From the IMG/VR virus record IMGVR_UViG_3300002835_001075, positions 1-24,046 of that record: a stretch of 24,046 nucleotides of DNA; one strand, 5' to 3'. Under the pieces are notes generated by a model that was given only the letters and a program-made list of their open reading frames with translations, was not told the DNA's origin and did no database searches. Origin of the DNA: a virus. Below are positions 1,307 to 16,813 of this stretch, in pieces. A program made the translations under genes and the position numbers. Numbering within the stretch: position 1 is the first letter of the stretch; every line of letters begins with the position of its first letter.

Positions 1307-1601
1307 CAAAATTATGGAATCAATAAAACAAATCGTCATCCCTACAGGGAGAAAAGTATTAATCAAAAGAGCTTCGGCCCCCACTCATTTTCCAGGTACA
1401 ACACTTATAATTCCAGATTCTGTTAAAAAACAAGAATTTAAAGGAACAGTAGTTGCAGTTGGAAGTCAAGAACAAGAAATTAAAGTTGGAGATTTTGTCC
1501 AATATGCTGACTATGCTGTACCTACTTCTATGGAGCATAACGGTGAACCTCATCTTCTAATAAATGCAGCAGATGTTTTTGCAATAATTAGAACTGTATA
1601 A
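1296..1601 (+). CDS. GroES-like co-chaperonin (Cpn10)
   Basis: The 101-residue length is right for the GroES family. Sequence shows the family pattern: RKVLIKRA near the N-terminus (first beta strand), a mobile loop around residues 26-40 with the hydrophobic GTTLII stretch that corresponds to the GIVL contact of GroES, then FKGTVVAVGS, KVGDFVQY, and a C-terminal ADVFAIIRTV strand equivalent to the ESDILAIV end of bacterial GroES. Phage co-chaperonins such as T4 gp31 replace host GroES on host GroEL to fold the capsid protein; a similar role here is inferred. No GroEL is in the window. Its stop overlaps the TerL ATG in a TAATG junction. A second in-frame ATG lies at 1314, but 1296 is kept because it follows the overlap style of its neighbours. 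Confidence 0.9.
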   Translation: MTNNKIMESIKQIVIPTGRKVLIKRASAPTHFPGTTLIIPDSVKKQEFKGTVVAVGSQEQEIKVGDFVQYADYAVPTSMEHNGEPHLLINAADVFAIIRTV

Positions 1602-3790
1602 TGTTTATAACTATTCCGGCTTATAATAAACAAACTGATCTATGGTCTAATGTTGATTTTAAAACAAGATCTGATTTTTACACGTTTATTCTTTCTATAT
1701 TTAAAGAGCCGGGACAGTATGCATTTAATGAAACATCCCTTCTATTTAATACGGAAGCTAAAAAGTTTAATGAACAAGGCTTTTATTGTGCAAGCCCATT
1801 CAAATCTCAAGATTTTAGAGCATACTGGGATGACCAAAAAATTAAGTGCCGTAATGGAGTAATTTTTATTGATGGTTCTCAGACTTGGTATTTAACCCGT
1901 GATTATTACATGTGGTTAAACTTTCTTCCAATCTTTGATAAGGAAGAAAAACTATATGGATTTGCCAAAGTCCGGGATGCTCAGTATCATATGGCTTTAT
2001 ATGAATTACTGGCTGAACTGGATTATAAACATTGTGCTATTCTTAAAAAGAGACAGATTGCTTCTTCATATTTTCATATGGGGAAAATTATAAATCAATA
2101 TTACTTTGAAGAGGGTTCTGTTTGTAAAATAGGAGCTTCTTTAAAAGATTATATTGATGATAAAGGTTCATGGAAATTTTTAGATGATTACAAGAATTTT
2201 TTAAATGAACACACAGCTTGGTATAGACCTAGTAATCCTGATAAAGTATTATTGTGGCAACAACAGATTGAGGTTACTTTAAATAACAGGAAAACATCTA
2301 GAGGATTAAAATCTAAAATACAGGGGGCATCATTTGAAAAAAAGGCAACAAGTGGAGTAGGAGGACCAACAACTATTTTCTTTCATGAGGAAGCCGGGAT
2401 TGCCCCCAGGATGATGGAAACTTATGAGTATTTACGTCCTGCTATGTCATCAGGTATGGTGACTACAGGGATATTTATAGCAGCAGGTTCTGTTGGGGAT
2501 TTAACCCAATGTGAGCCTTTAAAGGATATGATTCTTAACCCTTTGGGGAATCTTATTTATGCTGTAGAAACAGACCTTATTGATAAGGATGGCACCATTG
2601 GTAAGGCTGGATTATTTATACCAGAACAATGGTCAATGCTTCCCTATATAGATGAATATGGTAATTCACTTGTTGAAGAAGCCTTAGCCGCAATCCTTGA
2701 ACAAAGAATAAAATGGAAAGCAGAACTTAGTTCAGAACAATACCAATTAAGAATTTCTCAGCAACCAATTAATATTGAAGAAGCCTTTGCCTATAGAAAA
2801 GAATCTATCTTTCCTCAAGGTGTGTTATCTCAACAAAATAAAAGAATTGAGGATAAAGAATATGCGTATGAGTATCTTGAATTAAAGAGAGAAGCCGGGA
2901 AGATTACAGCTGAAAAATCTAATAAAGTACCTATATCTACTTTTCCTGTTAATAAGAAAATGGTTAACAAAGAAGGTGTATTAGTAGTATATGAAAGACC
3001 ACCGGCTGAACCTGTATTTGGAGCTTACTATGGATCTGTAGACCCTGTTTCAGAGGGAAAAACTAATACGAGTGATTCATTATGTACTATTGTTATTTAT
3101 AAAAATGCTGTTGAAGTAACTAGAGAAACTCCACATGGTTTAGAGGTATTTATAGAAAAGGATAAAATTGTTGCTACATGGTGTGGTAGATTTGATGATA
3201 TCAATGACACACATGAATTTTTGTCTTTACTAATTGAATGGTATAACGCATGGACCTTAGTTGAAAACAACGTGTCTTTGTTTATCCAGTACATGATATC
3301 AAAGAGAAGACAAAAATATCTAGTGCCAAAACAACAAATATTATTTCTTAAAGATTTAGGAGCCAATCAAAATGTATTTCAAGAATATGGTTGGAAAAAT
3401 ACTGGAGTATTATTTAAAAACCATTTGATATCATATGCAATTGAATTTGTTAGAGAAGTTATAGATGAAGAAACAAATGAAAATGGAGATATTACTAAGG
3501 TTACTTATGGGGTAGAAAGAATACCTGATGGGATGATTATAAAAGAAATGTTAGCATACTATCCGGGATTAAACGTGGATAGATTAGTTGCATTTTCAGC
3601 TCTTATTGCTTTTGTAAGAATCCAACAATCTAATAGAGGATTCATGAAAAGACGGGAACAAGACAAGAATAATTTGGATAACTCACAGAATTTGTATAAA
3701 TTAAAGTATACACCTTTTAAAAATATTGAACGTAATAAAGGTGCAAGCAGCAATAAACCAAAAAGATCAGCTTTTAAAAATTTAAAATAA
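1601..3790 (+). CDS. terL: Terminase large subunit (TerL)
   Basis: This 729-residue protein is the DNA packaging motor and headful or end nuclease. The N-terminal ATPase half carries a degenerate Walker A at about 147-158 (ILKKRQIASSYF), a Walker B ending in acidic residues at about 258-266 (TIFFHEEAG, E263/E264), and a coupling motif at 291-300 (IFIAAGSVGD). The C-terminal RNase H-like nuclease half shows GSVDPV (D481), LVENN (E555) and NVDRLVAFSAL (D660), the usual acidic triad. A basic tail (KPKRSAFKNLK) closes it. The non-classical Walker A, lacking a GKT/GKS, is also seen in many crAss-like terminases as far as I recall. The start overlaps the GroES stop (TAATG) and the portal gene follows after 1 nt. 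Confidence 0.93.
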   Translation: MFITIPAYNKQTDLWSNVDFKTRSDFYTFILSIFKEPGQYAFNETSLLFNTEAKKFNEQGFYCASPFKSQDFRAYWDDQKIKCRNGVIFIDGSQTWYLTRDYYMWLNFLPIFDKEEKLYGFAKVRDAQYHMALYELLAELDYKHCAILKKRQIASSYFHMGKIINQYYFEEGSVCKIGASLKDYIDDKGSWKFLDDYKNFLNEHTAWYRPSNPDKVLLWQQQIEVTLNNRKTSRGLKSKIQGASFEKKATSGVGGPTTIFFHEEAGIAPRMMETYEYLRPAMSSGMVTTGIFIAAGSVGDLTQCEPLKDMILNPLGNLIYAVETDLIDKDGTIGKAGLFIPEQWSMLPYIDEYGNSLVEEALAAILEQRIKWKAELSSEQYQLRISQQPINIEEAFAYRKESIFPQGVLSQQNKRIEDKEYAYEYLELKREAGKITAEKSNKVPISTFPVNKKMVNKEGVLVVYERPPAEPVFGAYYGSVDPVSEGKTNTSDSLCTIVIYKNAVEVTRETPHGLEVFIEKDKIVATWCGRFDDINDTHEFLSLLIEWYNAWTLVENNVSLFIQYMISKRRQKYLVPKQQILFLKDLGANQNVFQEYGWKNTGVLFKNHLISYAIEFVREVIDEETNENGDITKVTYGVERIPDGMIIKEMLAYYPGLNVDRLVAFSALIAFVRIQQSNRGFMKRREQDKNNLDNSQNLYKLKYTPFKNIERNKGASSNKPKRSAFKNLK

Positions 3791-3791
3791 C

Positions 3792-6542
3792 ATGCAAGTA
3801 TTTAACGCAATGCAACTCAAAGCGGGAGCTAAGGCCGAAAGTGGATATCCATCTACTACAAGTCTTACCCAGCCAATACAGTTTTTACCAGCTAAAGAAA
3901 AAGATAATGACTGGGTAGCCTGGAACTTAGACTGGCTTGAGTTACAGGGAATGTATTTCTTGAGACAAAATGCTAGAAGACTTTTAAAGAATTATAAACT
4001 TGCCAAAGGTATAATTGATAGAACTGATTATATTGTAGAAGAGGATAATGATCTAAAAGATTTAATGGATGTATTGACTAAAGAAGATCAATCTGCGTTA
4101 GAACTTAAATTCTATCCAATTATTCCCAATGTAATAAATGTATTATCAGGAGAATTTTCAAAAAGATTAACTAAAGTACAGTTTAGAGCTGTTGATGATA
4201 AATCATATAATGAGATGCTTACTCAAAAGAAAGCACTTGTTGAAGAAAATTTATTGGCAGATGCAGAACAAAAGTTAATTCAGAAAATGTTAGCTATGGG
4301 AGCTGATCCTAATAGTCCTGAAGTTCAGCAACAATTATCTCCAGAAAATCTTAAAACATTACCTGAGATTGAAGATTTTTTTTCTAAGAGTTATAGAAGT
4401 ATGACTGAAGAATGGGCTACTCATCAAATGAATGTGGATGATGAAAGATTTAAAATGCAGGAACTTGAAGAAAGAGCATTTAGGGATAGTCTTATTACAG
4501 ATAGAGAGTTCTGGCATTTTAGAATGTTGGAAGATGATTATGAAGTTGAATTGTGGAATCCTGTTCTAACTTTCTACCAAAAATCTCCAGATACACGGTA
4601 TATTTCTGATAGTAATTATGCTGGTAAAATTGATTTAATGACTGTGTCAGATGTTGTAGACAAATACGGTTATCTGATGAATGAAGACCAATTGGCTTCT
4701 CTACAGAGAATATACCCTGCAAGGTCAGCTGCCTATCAGGTAAGTGGCTATCAGAATGATGGAACTTTTTATGACCCTAGTAGATCTCATGAATGGAATA
4801 CTAATATGCCAGGTTTAGCTTATAGACAATTTACAAGTCATTGGGATACAGCTCCTGAATTAGGTGGAGATATAGTAAGTGCTATACTTCAACAAGGTGA
4901 AGATTTATCAAATTGGAACCAAGGTTCTTTAATGAGGGTGACTACTGTGTATTGGAAAACTCAAAGAAAAGTTGGTCATCTTACAAAAATGACTAAACAG
5001 GGAGAGGTTATATCAGCAATCATAGATGAAACATTTAAAGTAACTGAAAAACCTATTTATGATACATCTTTATTTAAAAATAAAACAAAAGATAATGTAA
5101 TAGAAGGAGAACATATAGATTGGATATGGATAAATGAAACTTATGGTGGAGTTAAAGTTGGCCCAAATTTACCAGCTTTTTGGAGATCTAATATGAGTAA
5201 TAATATTAACCCTATTTATTTAGGAATTAATAGAAAAATTCCAGGAAGAATTCCTTTTCAGTTTAAAGGTAACCAAACATTGTATGGTTGTAAATTACCT
5301 ATTGAGGGGCGTGTATTTTCTGATAGAAATACAAAGTCTACAGCTCTTGTAGATTTAATGAAACCTTTCCAAGTTGGTTATAACTTAGTTAATAATCAGA
5401 TAGCCGATATTCTTGTAGATGAATTAGGTACTGTAATTTTATTAGACCAGAATGCACTGCCTAGACATTCTATGGGTGAAGATTGGGGAAAAGGTAACTA
5501 TGCAAAAGCATATGTAGCAATGAAAGATTTTCAAATTCTTCCATTAGATACATCAATATCTAATACAGAAAATGCTACAAATTTTCAACATTTTCAATCT
5601 TTAAATTTAGAACAAACAAGTAGGTTAATGTCTAGAGTAAATCTTGCTACTTATTTTAAACAGCAAGCATTTGATGCTATTGGTGTTAATCTTCAAAGAC
5701 TAGGGGCCCCTATTTCACAACAAACAGCAACCGGTATGACTCAAGCTTTAAATCAATCTTATGCTCAAACAGAGATTTATTTTACACAGCACTCTGATCA
5801 TTTAATGCCAAGAGTTCATCAAATGCGTACAGACCTTGCTCAGTTTTATAATAGCACCAAACCTAGTTTAAGATTAAGTTATATATCATCTGCTGCTGAA
5901 AAAGTTAATTTTACAATTAATGGTATAGATTTATTAGCTAGAGATCTTAATGTATTTGCTACAACAAAAACAAATCATAGAGGTGTATTAGATCAATTAA
6001 AAAGATTAGCTGAAACTAATAATACAACTGGTGCTACAATTTTTGATTTAGGTAATATTATTAAATCTGAGTCTATTGCTGAAATTACAGATATTCTTAA
6101 AGATGCTGAAATTAAACAAACAGCTGTTAGACAAGAAGAATTTGCCCATCAGCAAGAAATGCAACAACAAGCTTTAACTGCTAAACAAGAAGAAGCTAGA
6201 ATGAAACTTGAATTTGAATCTTCTGAAAATGAAAAAGATCGTCTTAATGATAGAACTATTGCAGAGATTAGAGCTGCCGGTTATGGTGCAACTTCTGATA
6301 TAAATCAAAATCAGATTAGTGATTATCAAGATGCAATGAAAGATATTAATATACAGAGTGAGAAAAGAGAAGAAATGAATTTTAAGAAAGAACAGGCAAC
6401 TGTTAAAAATTCACTAAGCAAAGAAGACCTTCAAATTAAAAGAGAAAAGTTAGCTACGGAAAGAGATATTGCAAATAAACAATTAGAAATTGCAAGGGTT
6501 AATAAAAATCGTTTTGATAAAGGATCAGATAAGAAGAAATAA
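3792..6542 (+). CDS. Portal protein
   Basis: This 916-residue protein directly follows TerL and precedes the scaffold-like and capsid genes, the classic portal position. The N-terminal part contains a helical region (FLRQNARRLLKNYKL, about 56-70) and FYPIIPNVINVLSGEF (about 107-122), a pattern seen in large portals of crAss-like and P22-like phages. A conserved core around residue 522 reads MKPFQVGYNLVNNQI. From about residue 756 onward the chain is a long charged coiled coil rich in Gln, Glu and Lys, ending KGSDKKK; this probably forms the barrel that projects into the capsid. Portals are dodecamers at one vertex and act as the DNA channel and the dock for TerL and the connector. The 916-residue length is on the large side. 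Confidence 0.87.
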   Translation: MQVFNAMQLKAGAKAESGYPSTTSLTQPIQFLPAKEKDNDWVAWNLDWLELQGMYFLRQNARRLLKNYKLAKGIIDRTDYIVEEDNDLKDLMDVLTKEDQSALELKFYPIIPNVINVLSGEFSKRLTKVQFRAVDDKSYNEMLTQKKALVEENLLADAEQKLIQKMLAMGADPNSPEVQQQLSPENLKTLPEIEDFFSKSYRSMTEEWATHQMNVDDERFKMQELEERAFRDSLITDREFWHFRMLEDDYEVELWNPVLTFYQKSPDTRYISDSNYAGKIDLMTVSDVVDKYGYLMNEDQLASLQRIYPARSAAYQVSGYQNDGTFYDPSRSHEWNTNMPGLAYRQFTSHWDTAPELGGDIVSAILQQGEDLSNWNQGSLMRVTTVYWKTQRKVGHLTKMTKQGEVISAIIDETFKVTEKPIYDTSLFKNKTKDNVIEGEHIDWIWINETYGGVKVGPNLPAFWRSNMSNNINPIYLGINRKIPGRIPFQFKGNQTLYGCKLPIEGRVFSDRNTKSTALVDLMKPFQVGYNLVNNQIADILVDELGTVILLDQNALPRHSMGEDWGKGNYAKAYVAMKDFQILPLDTSISNTENATNFQHFQSLNLEQTSRLMSRVNLATYFKQQAFDAIGVNLQRLGAPISQQTATGMTQALNQSYAQTEIYFTQHSDHLMPRVHQMRTDLAQFYNSTKPSLRLSYISSAAEKVNFTINGIDLLARDLNVFATTKTNHRGVLDQLKRLAETNNTTGATIFDLGNIIKSESIAEITDILKDAEIKQTAVRQEEFAHQQEMQQQALTAKQEEARMKLEFESSENEKDRLNDRTIAEIRAAGYGATSDINQNQISDYQDAMKDINIQSEKREEMNFKKEQATVKNSLSKEDLQIKREKLATERDIANKQLEIARVNKNRFDKGSDKKK

Positions 6543-6605
6543 TAATTAATGATCAAAAAGATAGCTATATACTACAGAAAATGAATCTCAATTTTCAAAT
6601 TTATT

Positions 6606-6636
6606 AAGTTTATTAGCAAATCTTTTTGTATATTAA
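6606..6636 (+). promoter_or_regulatory. Putative late promoter 1 (weak -33)
   Basis: The box GTATATTAA at 6628-6636 matches the other three late boxes in the window, and is preceded by a T-run. At the -33 position the bases are AAG (6606-6608) instead of TTG, so only the G is kept. The box lies 36 nt before the ATG of the scaffold-like gene, the same distance as at the promoter ahead of 15347. The rest of the 130-nt gap from 6543 to 6672 holds nothing else that I can support. Confidence 0.55.
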
Positions 6637-6672
6637 ATATGTAGTCAAACACAAAATAAAACCAACATAATA

Positions 6673-7935
6673 ATGAGTACAGACACAACACAAATTCAGA
6701 GCACAACTGCTCAAGTAGACATAGATCTAGATGAGATCTTTAATGGAACACCTGTGGGTGGAGATATAACTCTCCAAGATCCTGTAGATGGTAAAAAATC
6801 TATTTTTCAAAACTTTAATCCTAATGTAGATATGTCTTTTGCTGACCCTGGTGTTCCAGCAAAAGAAATAGATGATCTTACAAAGGATATTAAAGTTGAT
6901 GCTGACAAGAAAGTTGAAGCAGTAGATGACATTCTTAATTCTTTTACTATAGATGATCCTGATAGTGAAATTGAAAAAGAAAAAAGAGGAAGAAAACCAA
7001 TTTCAGGAATAGGAGATGTTTTTCAAAAGTTAATTAAGGATGAAAAAATTGTTCCTTTTGATGATGAAAAATCTTTTGATGAATATACAGCTAAAGATTG
7101 GGAAGAACTTATTGATGCTAACCTTGAAGAAAAGGCTAATCAAGTAAGGAGAGAAACCCCAAAACAATTTTTTGATAGTCTACCACAAGAACTTCAAATT
7201 GCAGCAAGATATGTTGCAGATGGAGGTCAAGATTTAAAAGGTCTTTTTATGACTTTAGGACAAGTTGAACAAACTAGAGAGTTGGATCCAAGTAATGAAA
7301 ATCATCAAGAGATAATTATAAGTGAATATCTTGGAGCAACTGGGTTTGGTTCTCAAGAAGAAATTCAAGAAGAAATAGATACTTGGAGAGATCTTGGAAA
7401 ATTAGAAACTCAAGCATCTAAATTTAAACCTAAATTGGATAAAATGCAGGAACAAGTTGTTATGCAAAAAATTCAAGAACAAGATTTAAGAAAAAAACAA
7501 CAACAAAAAGCTTCACAACAATACATGGAAAATGTATACAATACTCTTAAAGATGGTGAGTTGGGAGATTTAAAAATTGATAGAAAAGTTCAAGCTATGT
7601 TATATAATGGTTTAGTTCAACCAAACTATCCTTCAGTAAGTGGTAAGAATACAAATTTACTTGGACATTTGCTTGAGAAATATCAATTTGTAGAACCTAA
7701 CCATTCCTTAATTTCAGAAGCTCTTTGGTTATTGGCTGACCCTACAGGATACAAAGCAAAAATTATGGAAAAAGGTTCTGAAAAAACTATAGCAGATACT
7801 GTTAGAAAACTTAAAACAGAACAAGCTAATGTAGGGGGGACTACATCTTTAACTAATTCAGAAGATGATGAAACTAAAAGACCATCGGGGAATAAAAAAT
7901 TAGTAAGACCTCAAAATATTTTTAAACGATTTTAA
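6673..7935 (+). CDS. Putative scaffold or head assembly protein
   Basis: This 420-residue protein sits between portal and major capsid genes, the usual scaffold position. The first 120 residues are strongly acidic and look disordered (DIDLDEIFNGTP, DPDSEIEKEKRGRKP). A helical middle follows, with a Gln/Lys coiled coil at roughly 255-290 (KMQEQVVMQKIQEQDLRKKQ). The C-terminal part (LLGHLLEKYQFVEPNHSL) looks folded and ends in a basic tail LVRPQNIFKRF. Low complexity, acidity and coiled coils are typical of scaffolding proteins, but no family signature proves it; an internal head protein is the alternative. It opens the capsid transcription unit behind putative promoter 1 and is 34 nt from the capsid gene. 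Confidence 0.6.
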   Translation: MSTDTTQIQSTTAQVDIDLDEIFNGTPVGGDITLQDPVDGKKSIFQNFNPNVDMSFADPGVPAKEIDDLTKDIKVDADKKVEAVDDILNSFTIDDPDSEIEKEKRGRKPISGIGDVFQKLIKDEKIVPFDDEKSFDEYTAKDWEELIDANLEEKANQVRRETPKQFFDSLPQELQIAARYVADGGQDLKGLFMTLGQVEQTRELDPSNENHQEIIISEYLGATGFGSQEEIQEEIDTWRDLGKLETQASKFKPKLDKMQEQVVMQKIQEQDLRKKQQQKASQQYMENVYNTLKDGELGDLKIDRKVQAMLYNGLVQPNYPSVSGKNTNLLGHLLEKYQFVEPNHSLISEALWLLADPTGYKAKIMEKGSEKTIADTVRKLKTEQANVGGTTSLTNSEDDETKRPSGNKKLVRPQNIFKRF

Positions 7936-7969
7936 TTTAACAAATAAATAACCTAAAAAACAATCAATT

Positions 7970-9589
7970 ATGGCAACTCCAGTATTAAACAATGGGATTT
8001 ACCTAAGAGATACTAACTACAAAGCTAGTTCTCATGTGGATTCTTATCACTTAACTCAGATGCTTGGTTCAGCAGAACCAATGGATCTTGGACCAGTAGA
8101 CATTTGGGCAATGACACAAAAAGTGGAAATGCCTTTGTATCAAATGGCCTCTTTTGGCGGTAAGAACACCATTCTTGTAGACAATGCACGTGGTGAGTAC
8201 AAATGGCAAACTCCTATCGCACAAGATTTACCTTTTATTACAGCTGACATTGAAGCTGCTAATGATGAAAAAGGTGTTGATGGTACTACTTTCAAGATCA
8301 AACTTTCTAAGAGAGCTTTTGGTCATGGAGATATTATCACTTATGACAAGTACAATGGATTAGAACTTTACATTACAGCTGAAGATATTATCCCAGCTGG
8401 TGATGGTTTTATTTACACTGTACAATTAGTTAACAATAATAACAGTGCTATTCTTAGCAATGATTATTTAATCCAAGGAACTAAATACTTCCGTAAGGGT
8501 TCTGCCCGTGGTGAGTATGGTGAAAGATTCTCTGACATGGAGACTGGATCTGGATTCCGTGAATTTTATAACTTTGTTGGAGGTGCTGAAGCTCACGTAC
8601 ATTATTCAATTTCAAGCCGTGCTGATCTTATGATTAAAGGTGGTATGAATGCTGATGGTACTGTTCCTGTTACAGAGATTTGGAGAAACTTTAATCAAGA
8701 TCAACGTGATCCTTCTATATCTAATATTGAAGGTTTAGTTGCAAACATGGGTAAAGCCGGTGCAAAACAAGCATTTGAAAATGGTTCATTAAGCCGTACA
8801 TTCTTAACAAATCTTGAAGCTGCTCACCTTTCTAAAATTGCCAATGACATTGAGACTTATTTAATGTGGGGTAAAGGTGGTAGAATTAAGCAAGATGGTC
8901 CTGATGATATTCGTTTATCTGTAGGTCTTTGGTCTCAGCTTGATAACTCATTTAAGCGTGTGTATAACAAATCTAGTTTCTCTTTAGATATGTTTAAATC
9001 TGAACTTTACAACTTCTACCAAGGTAAGGTTGAATTTAAAGGTCCAGATCCACAACGTAAGTTAATTGTACAAACAGGTATTGGTGGAATGCAGTTAATT
9101 AATAAAGCCATTTCTGATGAAGTATTTGGAACAGGTTTGATTCAGAATGCTTCTGATATAGGAGCTGTTACTGGTAAAGGTATGGATCTTGATTTTGGAT
9201 TTGCTTACACTTCATTCACAATTCCTTTCTTGGCAAATGTGAAGTTTGTATTGAATCCTGCATTTGATAATCTTCATACAAATGATATTGAAAACCCATT
9301 GATTGATGGTCGTCCATTGAGCTCATACAGCTATATTATTTTTGATGTAACTGATAATGGTAATGACAATATCTATTTATTGAAGTTGTCTTGGGATAAT
9401 CAATTGAAGTGGTTCTATCAAAATGGTACCATGGATTACATGGGACGTACACAAGGATTTGCATCTACAGGAAACTTTAACGGTTACCGTGTATATATGT
9501 CACAAACAATGCCAGCTATTTGGGTAAAAGACCCAACTAAGGTGTTGAAGATTGTAATGAGAAACCCAATCACTGGAGGATCATTCTAA
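7970..9589 (+). CDS. Major capsid protein, HK97-type
   Basis: This 539-residue protein follows the scaffold-like gene and is followed at once by a strong terminator, as expected for the most highly made virion protein. Its codon use is visibly richer in G/C-ending codons (CGT, AAC, GGT, CTT) than its neighbours, a sign of selection for high expression. The N-terminal arm (NNGIYLRDTNYKASSHVDSY) and a long region around IWRNFNQDQRDPSISNIEGL fit capsid proteins of large Bacteroidota phages; the C-terminal part (GRTQGFASTGNFNGYRVYMS) is beta-rich. I assign it by position, length and composition more than by a diagnostic motif. No protease gene is seen, so maturation cleavage cannot be judged. It may be the main client of the GroES encoded upstream. 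Confidence 0.85.
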   Translation: MATPVLNNGIYLRDTNYKASSHVDSYHLTQMLGSAEPMDLGPVDIWAMTQKVEMPLYQMASFGGKNTILVDNARGEYKWQTPIAQDLPFITADIEAANDEKGVDGTTFKIKLSKRAFGHGDIITYDKYNGLELYITAEDIIPAGDGFIYTVQLVNNNNSAILSNDYLIQGTKYFRKGSARGEYGERFSDMETGSGFREFYNFVGGAEAHVHYSISSRADLMIKGGMNADGTVPVTEIWRNFNQDQRDPSISNIEGLVANMGKAGAKQAFENGSLSRTFLTNLEAAHLSKIANDIETYLMWGKGGRIKQDGPDDIRLSVGLWSQLDNSFKRVYNKSSFSLDMFKSELYNFYQGKVEFKGPDPQRKLIVQTGIGGMQLINKAISDEVFGTGLIQNASDIGAVTGKGMDLDFGFAYTSFTIPFLANVKFVLNPAFDNLHTNDIENPLIDGRPLSSYSYIIFDVTDNGNDNIYLLKLSWDNQLKWFYQNGTMDYMGRTQGFASTGNFNGYRVYMSQTMPAIWVKDPTKVLKIVMRNPITGGSF

Positions 9590-9604
9590 TTATGATTATA
9601 AATT

Positions 9605-9648
9605 AAAAAGGGGAGGATTATTTAAAATCCTCCTTTTTTTCTTTTTTT
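9605..9648 (+). terminator. Intrinsic terminator after capsid gene
   Basis: A perfect 8-bp stem, GGAGGATT (9612-9619) with AATCCTCC (9626-9633) and a 6-nt loop, is followed by a run of seven T, one C and seven more T. The A-run before the stem can pair with the T-run, lengthening the hairpin. It starts 15 nt after the capsid stop. I see no clear promoter between here and 9674, so downstream genes probably rely on read-through. Confidence 0.9.
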
Positions 9649-9673
9649 AATAAAAATTTTAAATTTTAAAATT

Positions 9674-9868
9674 ATGAGCATATATGAAAATAGAAAACCA
9701 GTTAACCGCAGTATTCCTAAAAAGATAAAAGTTCAACCTATAATAGTTACAGCACCAATTGAACCTATAATTGAAGAAATAATTGATACTCCCGTTGAAC
9801 CCATAATCAGTAAGTCTAAAAAGAAAACTCCAGTAGTGAAAAAAAAGAAAGTTATTAAAACAGTATAA
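9674..9868 (+). CDS. Small Lys/Ile/Pro-rich protein
   Basis: This 64-residue protein has no recognised family. It begins MSIYENRKPVNR, continues with a Pro/Ile/Glu segment containing a near-repeat (PIEPIIEEI, then PVEPIISKS), and ends with a strongly basic stretch KSKKKTPVVKKKKVIKTV. It looks unstructured, with acidic centre and basic tail. It follows the capsid terminator. The next gene also begins MSIY, hinting at a common origin of the two starts. A minor virion or DNA-binding role is possible but nothing proves it. Confidence 0.6.
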   Translation: MSIYENRKPVNRSIPKKIKVQPIIVTAPIEPIIEEIIDTPVEPIISKSKKKTPVVKKKKVIKTV

Positions 9869-9899
9869 TAAATTTTAAATCATTTAAATAATTATAATC

Positions 9900-10034
9900 A
9901 TGAGCATTTACAAACCATTAAAACCCAGAGAAAAAGGTTACACATTTGATAATGTGAATATCTTTCAAACACCAGAATTTAAAGAAGAAGTTGAAAAAAT
10001 TGGTGATGCTCGGTATGAGCCACTAGCACCTTAA
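9900..10034 (+). CDS. Small protein of 44 residues, MSIY start
   Basis: This short reading frame encodes MSIYKPLKPREKGYTFDNV followed by an acidic helix-like stretch (TPEFKEEVEKIGDARYE) and the end PLAP. It sits 31 nt behind the preceding small gene, on the same strand, with a similar A/T-rich leader and the same MSIY start, and ends in TAA like every gene here. The balanced amino acid composition argues that it is a real gene. Function unknown. Confidence 0.55.
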   Translation: MSIYKPLKPREKGYTFDNVNIFQTPEFKEEVEKIGDARYEPLAP

Positions 10035-10053
10035 TTTTAACTCAAAAAACTTT

Positions 10054-10069
10054 TGCCGGGAAACCGGCA
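10054..10069 (+). other. GC-rich hairpin with GAAA tetraloop
   Basis: TGCCGG and CCGGCA form a perfect 6-bp stem closed by GAAA, a stable GNRA-type loop if transcribed. No T-run follows, so it is not a standard terminator. It stands out as the most GC-rich patch in an AT-rich gap and is the first of three inverted repeats in a row ahead of the gene at 10134. Confidence 0.7.
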
Positions 10070-10074
10070 TTAGA

Positions 10075-10088
10075 AATTATTAATAATT
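10075..10088. repeat. 14-bp perfect palindrome
   Basis: AATTATTAATAATT equals its own reverse complement. It lies 5 nt after the GNRA hairpin and directly abuts the next palindrome. It may be a protein-binding site or part of an RNA fold; all-A/T sequence makes chance more likely than for the two neighbouring elements. Confidence 0.6.
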
Positions 10089-10104
10089 GTACATAATTAT
10101 GTAC
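10089..10104. repeat. 16-bp perfect palindrome, possible operator
   Basis: GTACATAATTATGTAC equals its own reverse complement. Its end overlaps TACTTTTG (10102-10109), a match to the Bacteroidota -7 box TAnnTTTG, so a dimeric protein bound here could block polymerase. I find no -33 TTTG at suitable spacing, so the promoter itself is doubtful. It sits 29 nt before the ATG of the 341-residue gene. Confidence 0.6.
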
Positions 10105-10133
10105 TTTTGAGTAAAATTTTAAAAACCAACACA

Positions 10134-11159
10134 ATGAGCAAAAAAGAAAATTACACAATTGTAGAAAAGTATCAGCAGTCTAAAAACAAGACAATTGCTG
10201 TGCGTCCTTTCTTTGACCCCAATAGACAGAACATGGGATTAGAACAGTACAAAATGGCCTTGCATGATGGGGTATGGCATGAAGAATCTCTAGCATGTTT
10301 AGAGATGAATGGTGTTAAACGTTATGTTACAGGTCTAAATGAATTTGCACCAGATGTTAAGTTACTTCCTCCAGGTGAAAAAGACATTAAAATTAAAGAG
10401 ATTAGAAAAGTAATTTGTCAGTTAGAACAAGAATTAGCAGCTAATGTACTTGACCCTGCAGATAAAGAATTTTGGAATAAGGTTAGTTTATTAAAACCTG
10501 ATAATTTTAATTTTTGGTCTAGAATAAGCATTAGATGTGGTAATGATCCACTTTTTTTAGATCCTGATAGAGATCCTTATGATTTAATAAAATTGTATGC
10601 AATTAATGCCGGTGGATTTTCCATCATAGCTAAATCATTTAAGTTAGCTAAACAATCTCCTAATCCTCCAAAATTTTATTTAGATCAATTAGAGGAAACT
10701 ATTAGTACTAGAACTGAATACACAAAAATAAAAAATGCAGCTATTGGGGAATTACAAAGTCTTTATAATAAGGATACTACCAAGTTAATGTATGTAGCCA
10801 AGGTAGTTGATGTAGATAGTGTGCAATACACAAAATCTACACCAAATGATATCTTATATGAAAATATGGATTTTTACATAAATGGAGATGGTTCTGAGTC
10901 TAATAAAATAAAAGCTGCTGAAAACTTTATTGATGCTGCTAAAGATTCTATGGAGAATCTAAAGATTAGAGCCCTTGTAAAAGATGCTCTATACTATAGA
11001 TACATTACAACTAAATCTACTGGTTGGATTGAAACTTTAGATGGTGGTGAGAAACTTGGAAAAAAACCTTCTGAAGTTGTAGATTATTTAAAAAATCCTC
11101 TTCATGAAGAAACTTTGTTAAATCTATTAAGCAAAGTTGAAACATATTGGGCTAGTTAA
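10134..11159 (+). CDS. Unknown 341-residue protein after capsid region
   Basis: I do not recognise this protein's function. The ATG at 10134 (MSKKENYTIVEK) is chosen over an upstream TTG at 10107, because the TTG overlaps the -7-like box and its leader codons are A/T-rich non-coding in style. The N-terminal part has VRPFFDPNRQNMGLEQYKM and a conserved-looking GLNEFAPDVKLLPPGEKDIKIKEI; the middle has FNFWSRISIRCGNDPLFLDPDRDPYDLIKLYAI, and the C-terminal half is helical with a TKSTGWIETLDGGEKLG segment. It has no signal peptide or membrane helix. Its size and position after the capsid gene suggest a virion or packaged protein. It is preceded by three inverted repeats, the most structured non-coding stretch in the window. 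Confidence 0.85.
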   Translation: MSKKENYTIVEKYQQSKNKTIAVRPFFDPNRQNMGLEQYKMALHDGVWHEESLACLEMNGVKRYVTGLNEFAPDVKLLPPGEKDIKIKEIRKVICQLEQELAANVLDPADKEFWNKVSLLKPDNFNFWSRISIRCGNDPLFLDPDRDPYDLIKLYAINAGGFSIIAKSFKLAKQSPNPPKFYLDQLEETISTRTEYTKIKNAAIGELQSLYNKDTTKLMYVAKVVDVDSVQYTKSTPNDILYENMDFYINGDGSESNKIKAAENFIDAAKDSMENLKIRALVKDALYYRYITTKSTGWIETLDGGEKLGKKPSEVVDYLKNPLHEETLLNLLSKVETYWAS

Positions 11160-11181
11160 TATAACAGTATAATAAAAAATT

Positions 11182-11472
11182 ATGAAAACTATAAAAAAAA
11201 TGCAAATGGGTGGAATGTCTAATGGTATAATAATGAAAGATACTATGATGAAAAATGGTGGTACTGTAAAGGCCACTAAAAAACCTAAGATGGCTATGGG
11301 TGGCGCATTAAAAGATGTACCTTCTAGTAAAGTTGGATTATCTAAACTTCCTACAGAAGTTAGAAACAAAATGGGTTACAAAAAGAATGGTGGTGCTACT
11401 ACACCTAAAGCAAACATGGGAGGTAGCATGAAATATGGGATGGGTGGTTCAATTAAAACTAAAAAGAAATAA
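11182..11472 (+). CDS. Small Met/Gly/Lys-rich basic protein
   Basis: This 96-residue protein is built from repeated MGG units (QMGGM, MAMGGA, NMGGSM, GMGGSI) separated by lysine-rich spacers, with one folded-looking segment, GLSKLPTEVRNKMGYKKNGG, which I remember from small proteins of Bacteroidota phages. It ends KTKKK. It is highly basic and has 12 or more Met. It opens a run of four very close small genes (gaps of 1-2 nt). The last 15 nt (ACTAAAAAGAAATAA) recur at the ends of the next two genes. A DNA-binding or head-internal role is plausible from charge only. Confidence 0.75.
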   Translation: MKTIKKMQMGGMSNGIIMKDTMMKNGGTVKATKKPKMAMGGALKDVPSSKVGLSKLPTEVRNKMGYKKNGGATTPKANMGGSMKYGMGGSIKTKKK

Positions 11473-11474
11473 TC

Positions 11475-11681
11475 ATGGCAAAAAATAAAACAATGTTAAG
11501 TGGTCCCGATAGACAATGGGAAATTGAAGATGCAATGAGAACTCTTCAAAGAGCTGAAGCTATTCGCAAGGATAAAGCTTTAATGGGTGGTGTAAAAAAA
11601 TCTATGGATTCATTAAACAAAATGATGTTTGGTGGAACCCCTAATATTTCAGTTAAAAAAACAATAACTAAAAAGAAATAA
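11475..11681 (+). CDS. Small basic protein with KKTITKKK tail
   Basis: This 68-residue protein has an amphipathic helix in the middle (RQWEIEDAMRTLQRAEAIRK) followed by GG-containing basic stretches (LMGGVKKSMDSLNKMMFGGTP) and the tail VKKTITKKK. The tail is the same in the next gene, at both protein and DNA level. It starts 2 nt after the previous stop. The MGG/FGG motifs tie it to the gene before it, so the three neighbours may be diverged members of one small-protein set. Function unknown. Confidence 0.72.
   Translation: MAKNKTMLSGPDRQWEIEDAMRTLQRAEAIRKDKALMGGVKKSMDSLNKMMFGGTPNISVKKTITKKK
11653..11681 (+). repeat. 29-bp direct repeat, copy 1
   Basis: The last 29 nt of the 68-residue gene, TAA stop included, are identical to 11939-11967. 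It encodes the KKTITKKK tail. A shorter 15-nt version ends the gene before it, at 11458-11472. Confidence 0.9.
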
Positions 11682-11682
11682 A

Positions 11683-11967
11683 ATGAAAAAAAAATTAAAA
11701 AAAGCTCAAACAGGAACTTCTATCCCAGCTTCAAAACCGCTTTCTAAATCAGATTCTACACAAGTAGCAAATATTAAAAAAGCATTATCTGATACAACTA
11801 AATATAATGGCAAAACATTTTATCCATCAATGCCATCAGGAGCCCTTGATAGTTTAATAAGTATTTATAAAAGAGATAATCCAGGAAAACCTATTAATAA
11901 AAAAAATGGAGGAGCTGTTGAATCTAAAAAAATGGCAATTAAAAAAACAATAACTAAAAAGAAATAA
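11683..11967 (+). CDS. Small basic protein with KKTITKKK tail
   Basis: This 94-residue protein begins with a basic stretch (MKKKLKKAQTG), has a central segment that could fold (DSTQVANIKKALSDTTKYNG, then FYPSMPSGALDSLISIYKRD), and ends KKNGGAVESKKMAIKKTITKKK. The KKTITKKK end and its DNA are identical to those of the preceding gene, so the gene is bounded on both sides by copies of one 29-bp repeat. It starts 1 nt after the previous stop. Unknown function; nucleic acid binding fits its charge. Confidence 0.72.
   Translation: MKKKLKKAQTGTSIPASKPLSKSDSTQVANIKKALSDTTKYNGKTFYPSMPSGALDSLISIYKRDNPGKPINKKNGGAVESKKMAIKKTITKKK
11939..11967 (+). repeat. 29-bp direct repeat, copy 2
   Basis: The last 29 nt of the 94-residue gene are identical to 11653-11681, offset by 286 nt. 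Recombination between the copies would cleanly delete or duplicate the gene lying between them without breaking either reading frame. Confidence 0.9.
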
Positions 11968-11969
11968 TT

Positions 11970-12119
11970 ATGGCTGAAAAGAAGGATAGAAAATGGATAC
12001 AAAAAGCAATTAATCCTGCTCATAAAGGATATTGCACTCCAATGTCTAAACCTACTTGTACTCCAAAAAGAAAAGCATTAGCTATCACTCTTAAAAAAAT
12101 GGCAAAATCTAAAAAATAA
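11970..12119 (+). CDS. Conserved-type small phage protein, 49 residues
   Basis: This short gene reads MAEKKDRKWIQKAINPAHKG, then YCTPMSKPTCTPKRKALAIT and LKKMAKSKK. The pattern KWIQKAI near the start and R/K-x-AL-A-x-TLKKM near the end is one I remember from many small phage proteins, where the middle varies; here the middle is short and carries two cysteines in CTP motifs. It is very basic. It starts 2 nt after the previous gene in the same tight run. Role unknown; a small virion or nucleic acid-binding protein is possible. Confidence 0.72.
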   Translation: MAEKKDRKWIQKAINPAHKGYCTPMSKPTCTPKRKALAITLKKMAKSKK

Positions 12120-12123
12120 AACA

Positions 12124-12771
12124 ATGAAAAATTTAATATTTTTAATTTTTATAAGTAGTTTAATAATTAGTTGCAATACTGGATCAACTAAACTTCCTGA
12201 AAAAAGTGTACTAAGAATTCATAAAAGCAAATTTGCATTTTGTGGAGCATCTGGTGCAGTACCAACAGGTAAAAAAATAATGATACAAGGTGTAGAGTAC
12301 AATGAAGGTTGTGCTATTTGCCCTGTATTAGAAGGTCCTTCAATTTCTAACTTGGCTATGTATGGGTCAGGTGGAACATGGGGGGATTTTAATATTGAAA
12401 ATAATTTTCAAACTCCTGATGGTACTAATAATACAGTTTGGTCTTTGTTTTGGTATTATGATTCAACTACATTAATTCCACAATTTAATCCTGTATCAAA
12501 ATCTTGGGAATTATTATCACCAGTAAATCGTAAGTTTACTATTAACATGAGTAATCCTGAAACTAGTGAAAGTAATATGTTTGCAATGCCGGGAATTATA
12601 TTTGATACAACTGCAACAGGTATTGTTCTTGCTAAAGTATATGGTCCATTAAATGAAGATGCTCTTCCATTAAGAATTGCAATCCCTGTTAAAAATGGAG
12701 AAACTTCAATTACTGCAGCTAAGAAAGGTACACCCTATCCTGTAGGAACTCCAATCCCAACAAAAGACTAA
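12124..12771 (+). CDS. Predicted phage lipoprotein
   Basis: The first 16 residues are a short signal peptide (KN, then LIFLIFISSLIIS) leading to a lipobox cysteine (IIS-C17), so a host lipoprotein pathway should lipidate Cys17. The residues after it (NTGSTK) lack the acidic surface-export signal known from Bacteroidota lipoproteins, so it probably stays on the periplasmic face; this is inference. The mature part (about 198 residues) has GCAICPVLEGPSISNLAMYG with a CxxC, a Trp/Tyr-rich TVWSLFWYYDS, and a Pro/Thr-rich end. No enzyme motif is seen. Phage lipoproteins often block superinfection; iron or receptor binding cannot be judged. It follows the small-gene run by 4 nt and is followed after 10 nt by another unknown. 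Confidence 0.75.
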   Translation: MKNLIFLIFISSLIISCNTGSTKLPEKSVLRIHKSKFAFCGASGAVPTGKKIMIQGVEYNEGCAICPVLEGPSISNLAMYGSGGTWGDFNIENNFQTPDGTNNTVWSLFWYYDSTTLIPQFNPVSKSWELLSPVNRKFTINMSNPETSESNMFAMPGIIFDTTATGIVLAKVYGPLNEDALPLRIAIPVKNGETSITAAKKGTPYPVGTPIPTKD

Positions 12772-12781
12772 AAAAAATAAT

Positions 12782-13315
12782 ATGTCAACTGCACATTTTA
12801 AAATAACAAATAGTACAAAAGTTCCTGTATGCTATGCGGTTTATGAACAGCCTAAAGCAAATAACAATCCTTCAAAACATGGAGTGCTTAAACCTAGTGA
12901 AACTAAGGAGTGGAATTCTGGTTCATTACTTATAGGAAACTATGAAGTTTGGGCTATTGTAGTAGGAGATGCTAAAGATCATACAGAACTAACAGCAGTT
13001 AGTGGTAGTGAACCTGTATTTCCAGGAGAAGATGTAATGAAAGTTTATTTTGAAGATGGGTTACCAAATTGGTTAGGTACTTTAAATAAAGCTGATATGG
13101 AAGCTTTCTCTACTGATGACTTAAAACAAACTTTAGGTGAAGATATGACTACATCCATTTGTCCTACTTTTTATTGGAACGGTATGTCAACTCATACTGT
13201 AAAAATAACAGGTGGACCTGAACTGGTTCAAGAACCAGAAACTGGTTTATATAGAATAGGTAAACCTGGAGAAGAAATTGAAGCAACAACTTTATTATGT
13301 TATAGAGCAAGTTAA
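12782..13315 (+). CDS. Beta-rich protein of unknown function
   Basis: This 177-residue protein lacks a signal peptide. The first 70 residues look like a beta sandwich (AHFKITNSTKVPVCYAVYEQ, then LKPSETKEWNSGSLLIGNYE). The C-terminal part (STHTVKITGGPELVQEPETG) is also strand-rich. The opening phrase ITNSTKVPVCYAVY with a later TKEWNSG segment recalls small membrane-binding or lectin-like sandwiches such as aegerolysins, but the match is too loose to name. It lies 10 nt behind the lipoprotein gene, and the two may form an accessory pair. Role unknown. Confidence 0.7.
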   Translation: MSTAHFKITNSTKVPVCYAVYEQPKANNNPSKHGVLKPSETKEWNSGSLLIGNYEVWAIVVGDAKDHTELTAVSGSEPVFPGEDVMKVYFEDGLPNWLGTLNKADMEAFSTDDLKQTLGEDMTTSICPTFYWNGMSTHTVKITGGPELVQEPETGLYRIGKPGEEIEATTLLCYRAS

Positions 13316-14009: not shown

Positions 14010-14717
14010 ATGAATAATCAAACCCTATCTCTTAAAATAAAAGAAAGACTTAATAAACTTGCTAGTAATGACTATGATAATATAGAATGCTGGCAAATTA
14101 TTGAAGCTTTTAATAAAACTCAACTTGAATGGGTACGTAGACAACTTCATGGTAATAATATTTTTAAAGAAGGAGATGAATCTTCTAAAAGAAGAATTGA
14201 TGATTTACAACCTTTACTTACAGAATTAACATTAACAGGAACTTTATTAGATAATTATTTTGAGACTAATAATTTTCCTGTTGCTGATTATATGGAATAC
14301 AAAAGAGTGACTGCATACGCCACATCTGAGTGTTGCCCAGATCCAAGAACTATGGTTGTTTATTTATCTGAGTCAGCTAATATTGATTTGGTAATGAGAG
14401 ACCCTTTAAAAAATCCTAATTTCAATTGGGCAGAAACATTTTGTACATTAATAGGAAATACCATAAGGATCTATAGAGTAGCTGATTTTGAAATAAATAG
14501 TGGTTTATTTACATATTATAGAAAACCTATTAATATTCAAATCTCAGGTTGTCAAAATCCTTATACTGGAACTACTAGTACTACAGATGTTATTTGCGAA
14601 TTTAAAGATGATGTAGTTGAATTAATGCTTGATGAAACTGCATCATTAATTGCTGGTGATATTGATAACTTTAATCAGTTGACTAGAAACAAACAAGCAT
14701 CTGAACAAAATAATTAA
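14010..14717 (+). CDS. Putative head-tail connector or ring protein
   Basis: This 235-residue protein resembles a conserved family of crAss-like and related Bacteroidota phages: CWQIIEAFNKTQLEWVRRQLHGNN (shown here in part), a later RRIDDLQPLLTEL, then NWAETFCTLIGNTIRIYRV, LFTYYRKPINIQI and a C-terminal FKDDVVELMLDETASLIAGD. As I recall, this family is one of the virion proteins near the connector in crAss-like phages; the exact place (ring or adaptor below the portal) is inferred. Acidic C-terminal helix, no membrane segment. It is followed after 10 nt by the ferritin gene and thus shares its transcript. Confidence 0.62.
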   Translation: MNNQTLSLKIKERLNKLASNDYDNIECWQIIEAFNKTQLEWVRRQLHGNNIFKEGDESSKRRIDDLQPLLTELTLTGTLLDNYFETNNFPVADYMEYKRVTAYATSECCPDPRTMVVYLSESANIDLVMRDPLKNPNFNWAETFCTLIGNTIRIYRVADFEINSGLFTYYRKPINIQISGCQNPYTGTTSTTDVICEFKDDVVELMLDETASLIAGDIDNFNQLTRNKQASEQNN

Positions 14718-14727
14718 TAATAATATT

Positions 14728-15273
14728 ATGCAAAATAGAACATTAAAAACACCAGTTACAGGAGTACCTTCTAAAAAAAGTGATAATCCTCTTATAACTC
14801 CTCAAGCTGTAGATCATTTGAATTATAGAATTGAGCAAGAAGAATATTCTTCAAGAATATATCTAGCAATGTCAATGTGGCTAAATAATGAAGGTTATAC
14901 TGGAGCCGCTAGTTTATGGAAAAAATATTCAGAAGAAGAGTTAGCTCATGCAGAATGGGCTAGAACTTATCTTCTATCTTTTGGTATTCAACCTCTTACT
15001 CCGGCATTAAAACAACCTCAACAAACTTTTTTAGGTTTGCCTGAAATAATTGAGATGTCTTATGATCATGAGATTGAAGTAAGCAAACAAGCTAAAGAAC
15101 TTGCTGATAGTGCTTTTAAAGCAGCTGATCATATTTTATATGAACTAGCTCTTAAATATTTAAAAGAACAAGTGGAGGAACATGATAAAACTCAGACTTG
15201 GTTAGACAAACTTGCTGCATTTGGAACTGATCCTATAGCATTAAGATTATTGGATAATGAAATGGGAGGTTAA
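14728..15273 (+). CDS. Ferritin with intact ferroxidase centre
   Basis: This 181-residue protein aligns along its length with bacterial non-haem ferritin (FtnA). Residues matching the E. coli FtnA iron ligands are all present: E38 (EEYSS, equals E17), Y45 (Y24), E71 and H74 (EELAH, equals E50/H53), E115 (YDHEIE, equals E94), Q148 and E151 (KEQVEEH, equals Q127/E130). It should therefore oxidise Fe(II) and store ferric iron in a 24-subunit cage. It carries about 21 extra residues before helix A (NRTLKTPVTGVPSKK and so on), unusual for FtnA. No haem-binding Met as in bacterioferritin is evident. It is the last gene before the late promoter at 15279, cotranscribed with the connector gene. Whether it acts in the host cell or the virion is open. 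Confidence 0.95.
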   Translation: MQNRTLKTPVTGVPSKKSDNPLITPQAVDHLNYRIEQEEYSSRIYLAMSMWLNNEGYTGAASLWKKYSEEELAHAEWARTYLLSFGIQPLTPALKQPQQTFLGLPEIIEMSYDHEIEVSKQAKELADSAFKAADHILYELALKYLKEQVEEHDKTQTWLDKLAAFGTDPIALRLLDNEMGG

Positions 15274-15278
15274 AATTA

Positions 15279-15310
15279 TTTGCATTTATCAATTTTATTT
15301 CGTATATTAA
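15279..15310 (+). promoter_or_regulatory. Putative late promoter 2
   Basis: TTTG (15279-15282), 20 nt, then TATATTAA (15303-15310) with a preceding G. The spacing equals that of the two other TTG-bearing sites of this type. The box ends 36 nt before the ATG at 15347. It fills the 73-nt gap after the ferritin gene, which holds no obvious terminator. Confidence 0.7.
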
Positions 15311-15346: not shown

Positions 15347-16813
15347 ATGGCGTATTTTAATCATGCGTTCTACAAGAGTTTCTTAGCTTCAAGCGTAGAT
15401 ACTACTGGTGGAACTAAAACAAAAGATCTAGTTGCAGGTGAGCTTGCGCTAGTAGATGGTTCAGATTGGACTAGTGTTAGTACATTACCTGTTCCAAGTA
15501 TGGCTTACCTTGTACAAGGTAGTTTTCACACTCAAGACAACATTGGAAATAATCCAGGTCATGGTGGTTATTCAGAATCTGTAAAATCTAAGGGTATTAA
15601 TCCAAGGTATCTTACAAGAATTTGGGAATCTGAATGTTGTACTGCTGAATCTTCTACATTATGTGTAGCTGTTGATTCTGACTGTGCTCCTTGTGGTGAA
15701 GTTCTGTTTTTCAGGTTGGATGTTAAAGGTTCTCCTGCATTACGTTACTTAAATCACAATGCTTATGTTATTGCAGATTCAAGCAGAGCTTGTTGTGCAA
15801 CCGGACAATCTTATGTAGATCCTGCAGTTGTACTTGCTAATATTGGAAATATGGCATTACTTGATCCAATTGTAAAACCATTTATTGCAGAAGCTGTTGG
15901 AGGTGGAATTACTGTTAATGCAACAGCATTAAATGCAGTAGGTACAATTAATACTTTGGTTGGTGGAACTGGTTATACTAATGGTACATTTACAAATGTT
16001 GCTACAACAGGCGGTACAGGTACAGGTTTAACTCTTAATATAACAGTTGCTGGTGGTATTGTTATTGCGGCTTCAATTGCTTGTCCTGGTGGCGGTTATA
16101 CAGTAGGAAATGATCCTGTCATTGCAGGTGGAAATGCTGATGCAACAGTTAACGTTGCAGTTTTAGTACAATCTGCTGTTTATACAATAGCTGAAGTTCT
16201 TGCTGGAAATTATCCTGCATCTTTGGATCCAGTAACTGATGCTGTTACTGCTAATTTATGTTTTAGAGGAGCTTATGTTGAAACTAAGTTTGGAGATTGT
16301 TCATTTGATACTCGTGATTTCTATGAGAAAGAGCCTGTTCAATTGATTGGTTCTATGCTTAATGAAACTGGTGATCCATGTAATGATTGTGGTGTTGTAA
16401 CTACAACTCCAGGTTCAATGCAGCAAACTTCAGGTGAAACTGTGTTAAGAGCTTTATTAATGACTGAGAATTACATGCAGTCACCTTACAACCAAGGTAA
16501 CGCAGATTCAGCCCGTATCCGTGAGATAGTTGGTTCTGATAAAGTTTTAGCTGCTGTTAACCGTACAGCATTATACAAAACTTATTATGTACAACATAGT
16601 GTTCCACGTTTAAATAACCCAACTGGTGTGTTTGATAATGATCAGTATGTTTACCAAATATTTGTACCATGTGAAGACACAGCCGACCAAACAAAAATAG
16701 AAACTTTATTAGATGCACTAGTTACTGCAGCTAATGCTTCAGGAAACCCAATACTTAGAGAAGCACCTGTTAACAATAATGCAGTTGATGCATGTGCTAC
16801 TCCAATATTGTAA
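15347..16813 (+). CDS. Conserved virion protein with beta-repeat insert
   Basis: This 488-residue protein starts MAYFNHAFYKSFLASS and has NIGNNPGHGGYSESVKSKGI and NPRYLTRIWESECC, phrases I remember from a large virion protein of Bacteroidota phage contigs, tail-related by position; its exact role is not proven. At about residues 185-272 lies a Gly/Thr-rich segment (GGTGYTNGTFTN, GGTGTGLTLNITVAGG, GGYTVGNDP) that resembles the repeat domains in beta-rich virion proteins of T4-like cyanophages, and looks like an insertion: the flanks are less glycine-rich and would join smoothly. It has its own promoter and terminator, so it is probably made in large amounts. Many cysteines occur, including CC pairs. 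Confidence 0.72.
   Translation: MAYFNHAFYKSFLASSVDTTGGTKTKDLVAGELALVDGSDWTSVSTLPVPSMAYLVQGSFHTQDNIGNNPGHGGYSESVKSKGINPRYLTRIWESECCTAESSTLCVAVDSDCAPCGEVLFFRLDVKGSPALRYLNHNAYVIADSSRACCATGQSYVDPAVVLANIGNMALLDPIVKPFIAEAVGGGITVNATALNAVGTINTLVGGTGYTNGTFTNVATTGGTGTGLTLNITVAGGIVIAASIACPGGGYTVGNDPVIAGGNADATVNVAVLVQSAVYTIAEVLAGNYPASLDPVTDAVTANLCFRGAYVETKFGDCSFDTRDFYEKEPVQLIGSMLNETGDPCNDCGVVTTTPGSMQQTSGETVLRALLMTENYMQSPYNQGNADSARIREIVGSDKVLAAVNRTALYKTYYVQHSVPRLNNPTGVFDNDQYVYQIFVPCEDTADQTKIETLLDALVTAANASGNPILREAPVNNNAVDACATPIL

Follow-up and report, generated by a model that had tools for sequence, protein, structure and literature searches.

Ferritin and Dps cages both oxidise Fe(II) and store the ferric product, and the known role of Dps is the detoxification of iron and peroxide. 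Phage genes of the ferritin family are already known and have so far been listed singly, as auxiliary genes; Dps-like virion proteins are known as well. In two phages of the Ackermannviridae, LIMEstone1 ORF78 was confirmed as a structural protein by mass spectrometry, with 3 unique peptides and 28.21% coverage (PMC3296691), and Sajous1 gp217, modelled as a ferritin, gave 10 spectra from CsCl-purified phage (PMC10892097). Our sequence checks place both in DUF5856 (PF19174, phrog_858), a Dps-like family of T4-like and Vi01-like phages: gp217 is a member, and ORF78 matches PF19174 at 8.8e-29 as well as the profile of the Dps-like proteins described below. Dense iron-loaded cages could, on general grounds, contaminate phage preparations, and since such cages can co-purify with phages, the published detections are not proof of incorporation.

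Viral genes for iron or oxidant handling, as in the present case, include those of gut phages, whose Dps and Mn-catalase were proposed to raise the oxidative tolerance of the hosts (PMC8008677), and a giant-virus ferritin (PMC7136201); the parts of these two papers covered here describe no fixed structural slot, common tag or exchange of cage types. According to the covered part of the PhicrAss001 virion atlas (PMC10172136), the crassvirus virion holds about 5.5 MDa of cargo, head and tail together, so that a cage is physically plausible there; the same part reports no ferritin or Dps cage among the virion proteins.

The window, that is, the whole stretch of 24,046 nucleotides analysed here, is a fragment of a crAss-like phage, with matches to TerL, portal and major capsid proteins and to both Pfam CrAss_Ring_1 and CrAss_Ring_2. 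Its distant relatives include Leptolyngbya phage Lbo-JY46, csAssE-Sib and Cellulophaga phi17:2/phi4:1. It has in common with PhicrAss001, as far as the covered part of the atlas goes (PMC10172136), the two ring proteins, related TerL, portal and major capsid proteins, and a ring-3/4-like neighbour of the ferritin gene. A GroES-like (Cpn10) gene (window 1296-1601, 2.1e-12) is located immediately upstream of the terminase gene.

The gene at 14728..15273 (plus strand) is a complete open reading frame encoding 181 aa, from ATG to TAA. Its original assignment to the ferritin family was borne out: the protein matches Pfam Ferritin PF00210 at 4.6e-22 (78.9 bits, curated cut-off 24.5), its best sequence match in the PDB is the V. 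cholerae ferritin 3qz3 (1.7e-24), and its AlphaFold2 model, calculated as a monomer (pLDDT 89), superimposes on 3qz3 with an r.m.s. deviation of 0.9 Å over 158-159 residues (TM 0.94 on the target, 33% identity), the TM values with 3qz3 and E. coli FtnA 1eum being 0.94-0.95. In this model the ferritin body (14797..15270, plus strand) is made up of five helices (residues 25-54, 58-84, 104-131, 135-165 and 169-180), which form a four-helix bundle and a short fifth helix. It carries the ferroxidase ligands E38, E71, H74, E115, Q148 and E151, equivalent to E17, E50, H53, E94, Q127 and E130 of FtnA, together with Y45 and the site-C type glutamates E70, E147 and E150. All 10 residues of this ligand region, including the six ligands and Y45 that had been predicted to be kept, are invariant in 26 aligned relatives and in 32/32 unique ferritins from the same genomic slot, which are under strong purifying selection (median dN/dS 0.09).

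To judge from its sequence, the window gene almost certainly encodes an intact FtnA-type ferroxidase. The protein resembles bacterial FtnA (PF00210; 1eum, 3qz3) in its fold, body length, ferroxidase ligands and additional FtnA-type glutamates, whereas it is only 28-33% identical to it, carries an N-terminal tag of about 12 residues plus a linker, and is encoded in a phage structural operon. It also falls outside the equivalog PRK10304 (E. coli non-heme ferritin), with 71.7 bits against a threshold of 178. Two conserved peptide patterns were used to scan 84,980 genomes for near relatives, a scan that reaches close relatives only; it returned none except on a phage-like contig (43%), and a recent capture from a host is unsupported, with no nearby bacterial ferritin found. 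In a phage-like contig binned as a Sulfuricurvum MAG (L123, 6094-6576), a 43%-identical ferritin has Arg in place of the ligand His (SDEEVKRSE), a substitution that may alter its enzyme.

Scanning viral contigs for relatives of the ferritin yielded 39 loci (44-100% identity, about 26 distinct sequences), and nearly all of them show the same gene order: connector, ferritin, a 488-aa gene and a 183-aa gene. The gene had been predicted to lie inside a phage structural region, and looking for it at the same position in related phages had been proposed as a check; both points hold, the gene occupying a conserved slot after the connector. Because the gene is found again in this slot in many independent contigs, with dN/dS about 0.09, chance or contamination is ruled out as an explanation for the gene.

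The left border of the slot is the gene of a tail ring/adaptor protein, the connector (14010..14717, plus strand), which in the window matches phrog_29507 (virion structural protein, 9.4e-08). One member of the connector family matches Pfam CrAss_Ring_3_4 (5.8e-06), three match SU10_adaptor, and the csAssE-Sib counterpart is annotated as 'ring protein'. A PDB search with the connector profile returned no ring protein, and comparison of this profile with that of the Ring 2 protein of the window was negative; we describe the connector as CrAss-ring-3/4-like on the basis of one Pfam match, one annotation and synteny. The ferritin start codon is found 10 nt downstream of the connector stop codon in the window and at -4 to +26 nt relative to it across the ferritin loci. 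On the right, the slot is bordered by a promoter-like element, TTTGC-N19-TATATT (15279..15308, plus strand), and by a structural gene (488 aa; 15347..16813, plus strand) that follows ferritin, Dps and empty slots alike; the TATATT element is present upstream of this next gene in almost all relatives inspected. Similar elements are found upstream of 6673, 16932 and 17881 in the window, and the recurrent TTT(T/C)GTATATTA, at window 6629, 15303, 16893 and 17854, 27-44 nt upstream of gene starts, is a candidate late promoter. Since the TATATT element lies downstream of the ferritin gene, the latter is probably the last gene of a unit containing the capsid and ring genes; from gene position alone, we infer its co-transcription with the connector and its late timing.

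A few ferritins lie elsewhere. L002/L003, L015/L016 and L018 belong to another lineage and are outside the slot order, the ferritin of L018 being near tail-fibre and lysis genes. In L039, another crassvirus (448-12945), a 44%-identical ferritin gene is flanked by one for the virion RNA polymerase (match to PDB 6vr4, 8e-40) and by a giant 1484-aa gene, with tight gene spacing; this ferritin is associated with cargo genes but has no tag.

The alternative occupant of the slot is a protein of about 128-176 aa that belongs to DUF5856 (PF19174; 8e-15, and 1e-13 to 7e-20 across slot members) and to phrog_858, labelled Dps-like in PHROGs; the window gene itself falls outside DUF5856. A PDB profile search with this occupant, hereafter the slot Dps, identified Dps at 5.8e-05, and the top Foldseek matches of its model in the PDB are Dps structures, with a TM of about 0.6 and weak significance (E > 0.01). 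Among 103 slot Dps sequences, whose median dN/dS is 0.13, each of the residues H53, H56, H68, D83 and E87 is shared by 102-103. Hand alignment with the E. coli Dps ligands H51, H63, D67, D78 and E82 matches H56, H68, D83 and E87 of the slot Dps, with Asn or Gly at the D67 position. The first 23 residues are disordered in the slot Dps model. The Ackermannviridae members of DUF5856, unlike the slot Dps, have no tag and are outside the tail-ring context. Another relative of this family is T4 rI.-1 (H95, AF158101 58831-59148), which is annotated as hypothetical.

Slot loci were gathered by similarity to three connector queries, and the proportions that follow are for this reason not population frequencies: over 168 distinct connectors, the slot contains Dps in 96, ferritin in 33 and nothing in 39, and one connector sequence was found with ferritin as well as with Dps. 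The 39 empty slots mean that the occupant is dispensable in some phages. None of the 28 large records carries ferritin and Dps together, and five empty-slot records have neither, most records being fragments. On the connector tree the slot states require 35 changes, or at least 21 when ferritin and Dps alone are considered, and well-supported branches force at least 11 changes of the ferritin label.

The exchange is seen at the nucleotide level in L205 (119,556 bp) and L207 (27,146 bp), which, one gene excepted, share 98-99% identity across almost the entire 10.7 kb of the comparison. Their identity spans the connector and the first 11 codons of the slot gene (MAEQPRNLLKR), after which the sequences are unrelated, encoding ferritin in L205 and Dps in L207, and identity returns just past the stop codon. 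The same breakpoint is present in L019/L215 (connector 90%), L007 and L008/L166 (87-88%) and L172/L227 (78%), where similarity holds to about the L-K/R-R/K codons and is then lost. A chimeric assembly behind the difference between L205 and L207 is unlikely, as it needs two joins around one gene and the other pairs break alike. The slot thus exchanges ferritin and Dps. Comparison of the ferritin and Dps profiles gave one short, weak match and no further relation. Two distantly related cages swap repeatedly at a single position of a virion operon, with the tag retained, which amounts to a natural domain-swap experiment. This exchange, absent from the original prediction, is our strongest evidence for the function of the protein and for the role of its N-terminal extension: the phage requires some ferroxidase cage at that place and time, and either kind will do. 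The invariance of the ligands, together with the exchange for Dps, rules out a helical bundle co-opted purely as structure. The open-licence literature searched describes no tag that is linked to the phage backbone and combined with cage types replacing one another at a single structural position. Other genes also occur at this position: in L042 (5717-7521), a glycosyltransferase-like gene (459 aa) is inserted between the connector and the slot Dps gene, and in L117 (5714-5887), a relative whose slot is otherwise empty, a small holin-like gene (PF23987, 4.3e-17) is found in the slot region.

The original prediction had pointed out about 21 additional N-terminal residues. The extension is real, and its first 12 residues or so are a conserved tag that is also found on Dps, whereas the remainder varies in length and sequence. 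In the window the tag covers codons 1-12 (MQNRTLKTPVTG; 14728..14763, plus strand), a diverged version (MQNRTLKTP) with R-T-L-K-T-P in place of R-x-L-K-R, and is followed by a variable linker (residues 13-23; 14764..14796, plus strand); residues 1-14 have a pLDDT below 50 and are disordered in the AlphaFold2 model. A motif close to R-[MLT]-L-K-[RKT], after which P or N is common, is present in the N-termini of the 32 ferritins and 103 Dps. LKR occurs within the first 15 residues of 20/32 ferritins and 47/103 Dps, compared with 8/570 other open reading frames of five phages (first 16 residues); the Fisher p-values for ferritin and for Dps, both below 1e-22, are nominal because the sequences are related. 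In three phage genomes, a matrix trained on the Dps tails placed the ferritin N-terminus either at the top of the ranking or within the first few places.

Between ferritin and Dps, the similarity of residues 1-12 tracks that of the connectors (rho 0.30; 0/500 permutations) and continues to do so when the connectors are thinned to 95, 85 or 75% identity (still 0/500 at 75%), whereas the similarity of residues 13-24 does not. The tag is absent from the related ferritins outside the slot (L002, L015, L018 and L039) and from the DUF5856 proteins of other phages in which it was sought. Since it follows the connector and is missing outside the slot, the tag is a property of the phage backbone that outlasts a change of cage. 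It is probably functional as a peptide, and the exchange marks it out as a candidate targeting signal amenable to testing. The idea that many virion proteins share it as a general tag for export or packaging is unsupported: when five phage genomes were scanned with a PSSM, the slot protein came out top or near the top and there were few other credible carriers. The best non-slot candidate in one ferritin phage is a 135-aa protein of its structural region (L259, 8727-9134), with a similar N-terminus (MAAKSKQMLKRKDGS).

The tag is short and degenerate, and it could also have been kept as the left homology arm for recombination, or for DNA binding. The first of these, in which the codons serve slot exchange and the peptide has no function, we regard as improbable. 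The homology of swap pairs does stop within or just past the tag codons, and the codon choice is fairly uniform (TTA AAA AGA), but AT-rich genomes favour these codons anyway and synonymous variants occur (CTA/CTT for Leu, AAG, CGT). The R-x-L-K-R residues are retained at differing distances from the start codon, and an anchor further upstream, within the connector gene, would do equally well. As to DNA binding, many tags contain K/R residues, as do the DNA-binding tails of Dps.

Fe(II) oxidation and ferric storage are common to both cages and are therefore, on family knowledge, most likely what the phage retains. Their repeated exchange behind one tag suggests a part for a tagged iron cage in building the virus particle or in shielding it. 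On balance, we lean towards a module composed of a backbone docking tag and a ferroxidase cage of exchangeable type; it would be produced late and probably brought to the virion, or to its DNA, to oxidise Fe(II) and prevent Fenton damage, the docking and the virion role being what we infer. The window ferritin would be the ferritin version of this two-part module in this group of crAss-like phages, the short N-terminal tag of the backbone being fused to either a 24-mer-type ferritin or a 12-mer-type Dps. The cage would be translated alongside the adjacent tail-ring gene during virion building, and the tag would recruit it to a virion part under assembly or, close to the portal and tail, to the phage DNA. 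Drawing on Fe(II) together with O2 or H2O2 and storing the ferric mineral, the cage would protect the packaged genome or the assembling particle from Fenton damage, and it would either be carried off with the virion, as a minor constituent, or remain in the dying cell.

A purely auxiliary role, in which the cage would be a soluble iron and peroxide sink late in the infected cell and the tag a 5' leftover or DNA-binding tail with no virion partner, appears rather unlikely. It would account for the invariant ligands and the interchange with Dps, for the tagless ferritins retained at other positions and in other lineages, and for the K/R residues that liken many tags to Dps tails, and it agrees with the host tolerance proposed for phage Dps and Mn-catalase in the covered part of PMC8008677. 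It fits poorly with a tag that stays with the backbone when cages are exchanged and is not seen beyond the slot, with the fixed place of the slot inside a tail-ring/structural operon, and with the detection of DUF5856 relatives in virions (PMC3296691, PMC10892097). An association of the ferritin or Dps cage with the virion is plausible, if just short of probable. The more specific version of the docking module, with the R-x-L-K-R N-terminus as a capsid or tail docking signal and the exchangeable 24-mer/12-mer iron-oxidising nanocage as a virion component, is put forward tentatively; if true, the nanocage would guard the packaged DNA or reach the next host. The question of iron in phage particles gains here a concrete, testable gene, and the tag is a possible small peptide for loading protein cages onto or into phage particles.

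The Ferrojan Horse idea raised in the original prediction, according to which virion iron held in the cage would draw the tail to siderophore receptors and aid entry, is unsupported and seems very improbable. The cage gene adjoins a tail-ring gene, and in Sajous1 a DUF5856 protein was detected together with a tail protein. The Sajous1 paper, the one proposal of this mode of entry for such a protein in the literature searched, nevertheless saw no TonB or FeoB dependence: tonB and feoB mutants of its Salmonella host stayed sensitive to the Vi01-like phages, at similar efficiency of infection (PMC10892097). A ferric mineral in a closed cage should moreover be hidden from receptors, and no link between the slot and tail-fibre exchange was found.

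Structure searches also suggested, with weak E-values, ferritin-/Dps-like domains in three BFVD entries named 'prohead protease' from uncultured phages (A0A6J7WPK9, A0A6J7XDU5 and A0A6J7WIS1), which might be a further connection of Dps folds with virion assembly.
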